Positions 14,361 through 58,300 of a stretch of DNA of 64,000 nucleotides are shown piece after piece (positions within the stretch are counted from its first letter, which is position 1; each line of letters opens with the position of its first letter). A program made the translations under genes and the position numbers. The notes beneath the pieces were generated by a model. It saw nothing but the letters and a program-made list of their open reading frames with translations, was not told the origin of the DNA and did not search any database. Origin of the DNA: Eubacteriales bacterium (lineage in GTDB: Bacteria > Bacillota > Clostridia > Oscillospirales > Oscillospiraceae); assembly GCA_030531505.1 (NCBI GenBank), contig JAUNNH010000006.1, forward strand, positions 1-64,000, in the 5' to 3' direction.

Positions 14361-14426
14361 AATGATTATAGGAATCATTCGCTATCCGATGCTCATTATC
14401 ATGGCATAAATACCGCTTATCTTCAA
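14361..14426 (-). promoter_or_regulatory. fbp promoter region containing a copy of the AATGAkyATCGG motif and a hairpin
   Basis: Minus-strand TTGAAG (14421-14426) and CATGAT (14398-14403) are 17 bases apart. Immediately downstream is AATGAGCATCGGATAGCGAA, then a small hairpin AATGATT/AATCATT. The same motif and spacing logic appears in the hairpin array at 57.1-57.3 kb. Confidence 0.45.
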
Positions 14427-57037: not shown

Positions 57038-57073
57038 AACCGCCTCTCTGTTTTCGCAGAGAGGCGGTTTTTC
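57038..57073 (+). terminator. terminator after the triple Ig-like lipoprotein
   Basis: AACCGCCTCTCTG pairs with CAGAGAGGCGGTT, loop TTTTCG, followed by TTTT. Confidence 0.92.
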
Positions 57074-57077
57074 ATGG

Positions 57078-57106
57078 TTGCCGCGAGAATGGTTCTTTGG
57101 TATAAT
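57078..57106 (+). promoter_or_regulatory. predicted promoter reading into the hairpin array
   Basis: TTGCCG (57078-57083), 17 bases, TATAAT (57101-57106), with TGG just before the -10 box (extended -10). Transcription would start near 57113 and run through all six hairpins into the hydrolase gene. Confidence 0.6.
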
Positions 57107-57318
57107 GATTATCGGATGGCAAGAACGATCGCAAATTCGATCGTTCTCGCTGCCAAACGACAAGTTTGGCAGCGAATGACCCAAAGGGTCATTCGCCCGA
57201 TGCTCATTGAAATGAATACATGGCCAAACAGCTAAGCTGTTTGGCTGCGCGGCAAAGCCGCGCGGCGAAAAGCTTTTTGGCTTTTCGCTATCATATAGTC
57301 ATTATAATGATCATCGGA
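57101..57318 (+). repeat. array of six consecutive hairpins bounded by a 16-base direct repeat
   Basis: Stems (arm/loop/arm positions): 57122-31/32-37/38-47 AGAACGATCG; 57148-58/59-63/64-74 CGCTGCCAAAC; 57172-82/83-85/86-96 GCGAATGACCC; 57223-32/33-35/36-45 GCCAAACAGC; 57247-53/54-56/57-63 GCGCGGC; 57265-73/74-79/80-88 GCGAAAAGC. All are perfect. Neighbouring stems abut or share CGC/GCG bases. TATAATGATTATCGGA (57101-57116) and TATAATGATCATCGGA (57303-57318) bound the array. The middle spacer carries CCGATGCTCATTG, an inverted copy of the same motif. No protein-coding potential; a structured leader or small RNA, or a repeat element, are the options. Confidence 0.85.
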
Positions 57319-57340: not shown

Positions 57341-58300
57341 ATGCACTGGATCAGCGAGGAACAGTACGCAGAACAGATGCGCGACCTGGTCGAACCGTAT
57401 CTCGCCGCCCGGATAGAAGCGGGCTGCGACGAGCGGGTGAAGGGCCAGCCGATCTATTTCGAGCACTACCGGGCAGACGCGCCGAAGGGCGTGATCGTCC
57501 TCAGCCACGGCTTTACGGAGTCCATCGGGAAATTCACGGAGAGCATCTATTATATGCTGCAGGCCGGCTATGAGGTCTGGGTCCCGGAGCACCGCGGTCA
57601 CGGGAGGTCGTACCGCCCTAACAGCGACCCCTTTGTCGTGCATGTGGATCACTTTGAGGACTATGTGCTGGACCTGATCCACCTGACCGAGACGCGCGTC
57701 CGCCCGTCGGCGGGCGGGCTGCCGCTCTATCTCTACTGCCATTCCATGGGCGGCTGCATCGGGACGCTCTGCATCGAGCGCCGACCGGACCTGTTCCAGA
57801 AGGCGGTGCTCTCCTCCCCCATGCTGGGGGTGGTTCTCGGCAAGATCCCTGCTCCGCTCGCGAGCGCGATGCTGCATGTGAAGGGCGCCGGGGCCAGAGG
57901 ACAGGAGCCACTCAGCCCGGTCGTGGGCTTTACGGAGACGGAGGAGGATTATCCGCTCAGTGCCGCAAATTCTGACTGCCGTTATCGCTACTATACCCGG
58001 AGGCGGCTTGCGGATCAGCGTCTGCAGACCTGCGCGCCCTCCATGGGCTGGGTCCGGGAAGCTATCAAAGCCTGTCGCCGCGCCGGCTCCCGCCGGGAGA
58101 CCGCGCGTATCCGCATCCCGGTGCTGCTCTTTCAGGCGGGGCAGGACACCTTTGTCCGCTGCGACGCACAGGATCGCTTTGCTGCACGGGTGCCGAGCTG
58201 TGAGCTGGTAAAAAAACCTGCGCTCCGGCACGAGCTTTACATGTGCGAGCTCAGCGAGCTGATCCCCTACTGGGAGAAGATCTTTGCGTTTCTCGGCTGA
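57341..58300 (+). CDS. alpha/beta hydrolase, lysophospholipase/monoglyceride lipase type
   Basis: A 319-residue serine hydrolase of the Hydrolase_4 group: oxyanion loop VIVLSHGFTESIGKFTESIY, EHRGHGRSYRP, the nucleophile elbow YLYCHSMGGCIGTLCIE (Ser in CHSMGG), the acid in LLFQAGQDTFVRCDAQD and the base His in ALRHELYMCE. Likely substrates are monoacyl lipids. It lacks a signal peptide. Its leader contains the six-hairpin array, and GGGGAGGG precedes the ATG. A sugar kinase gene follows 112 bases downstream. Confidence 0.88.
   Translation: MHWISEEQYAEQMRDLVEPYLAARIEAGCDERVKGQPIYFEHYRADAPKGVIVLSHGFTESIGKFTESIYYMLQAGYEVWVPEHRGHGRSYRPNSDPFVVHVDHFEDYVLDLIHLTETRVRPSAGGLPLYLYCHSMGGCIGTLCIERRPDLFQKAVLSSPMLGVVLGKIPAPLASAMLHVKGAGARGQEPLSPVVGFTETEEDYPLSAANSDCRYRYYTRRRLADQRLQTCAPSMGWVREAIKACRRAGSRRETARIRIPVLLFQAGQDTFVRCDAQDRFAARVPSCELVKKPALRHELYMCELSELIPYWEKIFAFLG

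Follow-up and report, generated by a model that had tools for sequence, protein, structure and literature searches.

A two-unit hairpin element in Oscillospiraceae, probably mobile and MITE-like, with a preference for AT in promoter -10 boxes

Several described families of bacterial repeats come close to the element reported here. According to the sections cited, Correia elements of Neisseria and MITEs are short and geneless, with terminal inverted repeats, a target duplication and a stable fold (PMC10969869); BOX elements of pneumococcus carry a variable number of boxB between boxA and boxC (PMC3049150); and bcr1 of the Bacillus cereus group is intergenic and MITE-like, ~150 bp long, often located in UTRs and endowed with a conserved fold (PMC3446304, PMC2267715). 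Judging from the same sections, our element has in common with Correia elements and MITEs the intergenic position and the ability to carry promoter sequence (PMC10969869), with BOX the modular build of terminal repeats and stem-loops (PMC3049150), and with bcr1 the intergenic, MITE-like character and the conserved fold (PMC3446304, PMC2267715). It differs from the first in its two fused units and in its target, which is often a -10 box that is rebuilt; from BOX in having two units with their own ends and an AT duplication; and from bcr1 in its hosts, the likeness being one of description and not of sequence. The ends and the TA duplication of Correia elements are also different from those found here. 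In REPINs the mobile form is a pair of hairpin units, whereas our element has head-to-tail units, is bounded by terminal repeats and duplicates 2 bp. Among the titles and abstract openings retrieved by searches of the open-licence literature, none described this element or a MITE aimed at -10 boxes.

The element was found in a window of 64,000 nucleotides, the whole stretch of DNA that was analysed, from an Eubacteriales bacterium (GCA_030531505.1, contig JAUNNH010000006.1). Its length of 206 bp, many dispersed copies, lack of a gene, terminal inverted repeats and target duplication are those of a MITE, and only chance-like ORFs run across it. Very probably it is a non-autonomous, MITE-like mobile DNA element, composed of two fused cloverleaf units and with an AT/-10-like target. 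The features of the locus are the following:

57078..57106, plus strand: the hydrolase gene's host promoter, TTGCCG-17-TATAAT (from the sequence and the G013 ortholog without the element)
57102..57103, no strand: left copy of the duplicated AT (single AT at empty sites)
57104..57208, plus strand: unit A, with ends AATGATTATCGG / CCGATGCTCATT and hairpins H1-H3 (terminal stem covaries; the DNA fold closes the stem)
57119-57131/57138-57150, plus strand: H1 (sequence, copy alignment, covariation)
57147-57158/57164-57175, plus strand: H2 (overlaps H1 via TCGC and H3 via GCGA)
57172-57182/57186-57196, plus strand: H3 (copy alignment, covariation)
57209..57210, no strand: A/B junction dinucleotide, GA here
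57211..57303, plus strand: unit B, with ends AATGAATACATGG / ATCATATAGTCATT and hairpins H4-H6 (own terminal stem covaries)
57223-57232/57236-57245, plus strand: H4 (copy alignment, covariation)
57247-57253/57257-57263, plus strand: H5 (copy alignment, covariation)
57265-57273/57280-57288, plus strand: H6 (copy alignment, covariation)
57304..57305, no strand: right copy of the duplicated AT (empty-site comparison)
57306..57318, plus strand: AATGATCATCGGA, outside the element, identical to the consensus start of unit A
57341..58300, plus strand: alpha/beta hydrolase gene (Pfam Hydrolase_4), downstream of the element

The six hairpins at 57119-57288, reported in a first-pass annotation of the sequence, are all present, and so are the CGC/GCG junctions described between them, with TCGC common to H1 and H2 and GCGA common to H2 and H3. 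Because of these overlaps, adjacent stems cannot all reach full length simultaneously. The stems measure 7-13 bp instead of the 7-11 bp first given, and not all of them are perfect, as H1 has one mismatch in the window's copy. The array is real and beyond chance. With RNA parameters the element folds at -113.7 kcal/mol, compared with a mean of -55.8 for 200 dinucleotide shuffles (z -14.1), and with DNA parameters at -71.3 compared with -29.5 (z -13.1, again 200 dinucleotide shuffles).

Two readings of these hairpins had been put forward, a structured 5' leader or a mobile palindromic element of stacked units. The latter is upheld by the scattered copies, the rarity of common sites and the existence of empty sites. 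The search for other copies, named as a check in the first-pass annotation, found them scattered over its own and related genomes. The 206-bp core (57101-57306) has 14 near-full copies in its own genome, the window copy counted, eight at 96-100% identity and six at 83-84%, besides partial copies. Within a set of 60 genomes, the element occurs in 20 of the 37 from its genus (own included) and in none of the 23 that represent other genera of the same order; in a wider draw on the family, 7 of 150 genomes and 6 of 106 genera carried it (E 1e-20). An exact 33-base pattern gave at least 111 stretches in species genomes; the 80 matches listed all belong, by title, to Clostridiales, Clostridia, Oscillospiraceae or Ruminococcaceae, and several titles among the matches listed name sheep, goat or rabbit. 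Viral contigs yielded no exact match of one 33-base pattern, a search that diverged copies could escape, and no element match was found in plasmids and phages. The best copy in G153, a genome of another genus, is 93% identical to the window's, whereas the stretch adjoining it is only ~70% identical to two other carriers (L237, L189). This contrast hints at horizontal movement, with MAG contamination and strong constraint on the element as caveats.

The collected loci contained 268 matches, 157 of them full length and 114 unique. Both flanks were common to only two pairs among 111 eligible copies, and the set of 107 sites used below was obtained by removing three copies with short or similar flanks and dropping four more whose ends were not recognised. 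By simple ORF calls, the neighbouring genes are divergent in 31 cases, in the same direction in 54 and convergent in 15 (n=100). Other hairpin repeats were seen around some copies. In L090 and L025, the H3 loop carries a ~165-bp inverted-repeat insert (GTAAACG...CGTTTAC), one small element nested in another. At positions 6000-6300 of L241, tandem hairpin-rich units of ~100 bp (AAAGCACAGGCTATCAGCCTGTGCTTTTTTGTGCATCAAAG...) directly adjoin a copy. At the site of the L005 copy, many relatives have other hairpin repeats or different sequence, and this site was left out of the empty-site comparison; six of them (L138, L141, L142, L155, L159, L161) carry a hairpin repeat of ~130-200 bp with the core CTCGC..TTATCGC...GGTCG, a second hairpin repeat family. 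The window itself holds, at 14361-14397 on the minus strand, a 37-bp remnant that has kept both kinds of end (AATGATTATAGG and CCGATGCTCATT-AT) but hardly anything in the middle, a deleted copy of the same hairpin element.

The ends of the element read N-AT-AATGA...TCATT-AT-N, terminal inverted repeats that are also found within each unit. Every position from AT through AATGA is conserved in 64 copies or more out of 67, and the outer base beside AT is T or A in ~70%. At four sites where an empty counterpart could be aligned on both flanks, the empty sequence has a single AT and the filled one a pair: L204, compared with four relatives (70-86% identity), and L042, L184 and the window, each compared with G013 (68-69% identity). 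The tandem copies at L006 and L262 have AT in common. For L076, L366 (from G004) aligns only from AT rightwards, with the AT present, and is not a full empty site, and L369 has AC instead of AT; the comparisons for L052, L051 and L085 have junctions too diverged to fix the duplication. From these alignments we conclude that insertion duplicates 2 bp, AT. A TA duplication was rejected, since 34 of the 107 sites have a base other than T ahead of AT.

The 16-base repeat TATAATGATYATCGGA, previously described as bounding the hairpins, does occur at 57101-57116 and 57303-57318. It is not the boundary of the element, which ends at 57306, so that the second occurrence lies mostly outside, and it was also rejected as an insertion duplication, the duplication being 2 bp (AT). 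The 13 bases 3' of the element match the consensus start of unit A and are read as a remnant of another copy, AATGATCATCGGA being probably the leftover of a neighbouring or earlier one. At three other loci (L277, L278, L284), no more than 17-60 bases from the start of the element stand behind the promoters, which looks like decay of insertions to a TATAATGATYATC scar close to the following gene. A scar of this type may also form the right flank of the window's copy.

The spacer that was noted to split the hairpins into two triplets corresponds to the border between two head-to-tail units, each with its own covarying closing stem. In the consensus, where the 3' end of one unit meets the 5' end of the next, it reads CCGATGCTCATT-GC-AATGA-TATATGG; among 114 copies, the junction dinucleotide is GC in 78 cases and GA in 17. 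With DNA parameters, each triplet of the window copy is closed by its own stem; L080 and L053 likewise form two unit stems, and L085 forms one whole-element stem. RNA parameters prefer one stem spanning the whole element, not two units. Covariation was assessed on 58 representatives of the 114 copies (<93% identity, 195-220 nt). The unit stems are paired in 94.1% of cells and contain 36 two-sided cells, a result higher than in any of 500 shuffles; at the unit stem pair 15-97, for example, G-C (43) switches to C-G (10). The whole-element stem is paired in 85.7%, and its covariation score was reached by 213 of the 500 shuffles. The RNA fold predicts this terminal stem (A5 paired with B3), but it lacks covariation and was discarded in favour of the two unit stems. 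Ends of unit B occur alone in four chains, two of which (L092, L270) have AT on both sides. No free unit A was recognised among six chains with A ends only, inspected in part, and the 50 solo A5 chains are, by our own estimate, largely at chance level at three mismatches. In several derivatives whole hairpins are gone, with the ends still in place.

The hairpin stems covary too: of their 58 pairs, 36 have two-sided changes (169 cells); none of 500 shuffles was as high, and slid controls gave at most 14 pairs. Covariation had been proposed as a check for a leader, and the stems do covary, but without the strand preference expected of a leader RNA. Of 3353 hairpin-pair cells, 48 are G-U and 49 are A-C, whereas the 119 acceptor pairs of 17 tRNA genes from the same loci, taken as control, contain 8 G-U and no A-C. 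H6 is an exception, with 18 G-U and 3 A-C. An RNA of a given strand should have G-U, not A-C, and the near equality of the two, together with the 18:17 direction of the targeted promoters relative to the element, favours pairing at the DNA level, that is, an element that would fold as DNA and not as a leader RNA. Across the aligned copies, hairpin and unit stems are shown to keep their predicted Watson-Crick pairing through two-sided changes, with no strand preference.

Folding as DNA could matter during mobility, where it would be under selection, or copying across palindromes could keep the stems perfect, and the present data cannot separate the two. That the fold itself serves mobility is a tentative view, to which we give slightly less than an even chance. 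The main competing explanation, less likely than this but to be taken seriously, puts the perfect stems down to mutation alone: template switching at palindromes would have copied one arm onto the other, and two-sided changes would then call for no selection; the element would still be mobile, and only the role of the fold would differ. It accounts well for two-sided changes that far outnumber one-sided ones in many pairs, for loops that diverge by 0.38 per site compared with 0.126 in the arms, and for several copies without whole hairpins. It accounts less well for the unit stems, which covary as well with arms ~80-90 nt apart, and for two pairs of same-site copies, which show few arm changes, all uncompensated.

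The window copy illustrates how insertion may affect a promoter. The promoter TTGCCG-17-TATAAT that was reported to point into the element is present at 57078-57106. In G013, the hydrolase ortholog is preceded by TTGCTG-17-TATAGT and the element is absent. In the window, the -10 box is the insertion target and bases 57104-57106 are now element-derived. The comparison shows that the window copy split the -10 box of the hydrolase gene and that the element end supplies AAT, by which TATAAT is restored at 57101-57106. TATAAT stands again behind the old -35 because the element end reads AT-AATGA. The hydrolase mRNA would then start inside the element and carry, as a side effect, a structured leader of ~200 nt. 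Upstream, at 57038-57069, a 13-bp perfect stem followed by a T-run lies after the upstream gene and just before the hydrolase promoter; it is an ordinary intrinsic terminator.

The preference for such sites extends to other copies. Compared with a background of AT dinucleotides at most 100 bp from the same sites, the target T-AT-A is found at 53 of 107 sites versus 6.0%, and exact TATAAT, in either orientation, at 33 of 107 versus 21 of 1084 (1.9%; odds ratio 22.6, P 2e-23), the remaining 74 of the 107 sites being without it. Among 35 oriented TATAAT targets, 20 have at least four of six bases of TTGACA at a spacing of 16-18, compared with 0-6 in 11 control windows. A joint promoter score of at least 10/12 is reached by 21 of 107 sites and by 1-5 in seven shifted controls; at the looser score of 9/12 the excess is small (36 sites, 13-26 in controls). 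A G directly after TATAAT is seen at 24 of the 35 targets; the figures for promoters and TATAAT elsewhere are 24 of 113 and 127 of 579, respectively. The sites are thus similar to the end of the element itself, with -10 boxes as a frequent match. The site comparisons show that the element favours sites resembling T-AT-AATGA, the sequence at its ends, and that a considerable share of these are promoter -10 boxes. Better survival of promoter-sparing insertions, instead of a choice made by the enzyme, could also have produced this bias.

In the MITE-like reading that we prefer, the element inserts at AT and duplicates it, and an enzyme supplied in trans would bind the AATGA ends and join them with a 2-bp stagger. 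A bolder scheme, which we regard as improbable, is a mobile system that targets -10 boxes as such, perhaps by inserting cloverleaf single-stranded DNA into the strand opened by RNA polymerase, with an enzyme of an undescribed kind and ends evolved to rebuild the split TATAAT. Since the ends rebuild TATAAT, promoters would in that case be invaded without being silenced.

The search for a mobilising enzyme, which covered DDE_Tnp_1, rve, Y1 and DDE_3, found none. Serine recombinases also exchange across 2 bp. Among 13 carrier genomes, all incomplete, DDE_Tnp_1 was found in three, rve in seven and Y1 in seven. At 28 transposase loci (DDE_Tnp_1, rve, Y1) of these incomplete genomes there was no pair of element-like ends, and eight had single end-like matches without blastn similarity to the element. 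End-pattern searches in 11 genomes (own and ten relatives) revealed no autonomous relative. The matches in the own genome all lie in known copies, at contig ends or in the 14361 remnant, and 11 unassigned-looking places in relatives were, by eye, truncated or internally deleted copies, chance matches or L281, a longer hairpin element with no recognised gene.

These results bear on a REP/REPIN-like element moved by a Y1 (RAYT-type) transposase, a reading to which we assign little probability. Hairpin units moving as a pair and the Y1 genes in 7 of the 13 carriers would suit it. The terminal inverted repeats and the 2-bp duplication would not; moreover, the fetched Y1 loci lack similar ends, and no Y1 match was found in 6 of the 13 incomplete carrier genomes, its own included.

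A structured 5' leader or riboswitch-like RNA controlling the downstream gene is very unlikely, even though the window's element lies between promoter and gene, has a strong RNA fold and contains covarying stems. Of this part of the first-pass annotation, only a leader as by-product of the element's position survives. The hydrolase ortholog in G013 does without the element, which is not conserved ahead of the same gene, the sites are not common to different species, and both the equality of G-U and A-C and the evenly split promoter directions are at odds with an RNA function. The remark that the hairpins fit no nameable riboswitch class agrees with Rfam, which has no family for them: no match reached the gathering score in the window, and of two sub-threshold matches near the element the best was sucA, at 20.1 bits versus 40. 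Equally remote is an IS630/Tc1-type transposase, as proposed for other MITEs with a 2-bp (TA) duplication, since a 2-bp duplication and terminal inverted repeats would fit, but the duplication is AT, not TA, the preceding base often not being T, and DDE_3 (IS630-type) is found in none of the 13 incomplete carrier genomes at E 1e-5.

The MITE-like element enlarges the range of small mobile elements by a family whose target, the -10 box, is unusual and which seems to have a built-in means of sparing the promoter. The comparison of G-U and A-C cells offers a simple test of DNA- versus RNA-level folding, applicable to repeats of other families. Should the enzyme come to light, its preference for sequences resembling promoters would be of interest both as a tool and as a research question. 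In uncultured gut bacteria, several genes in each genome could owe an altered 5' end to the element.
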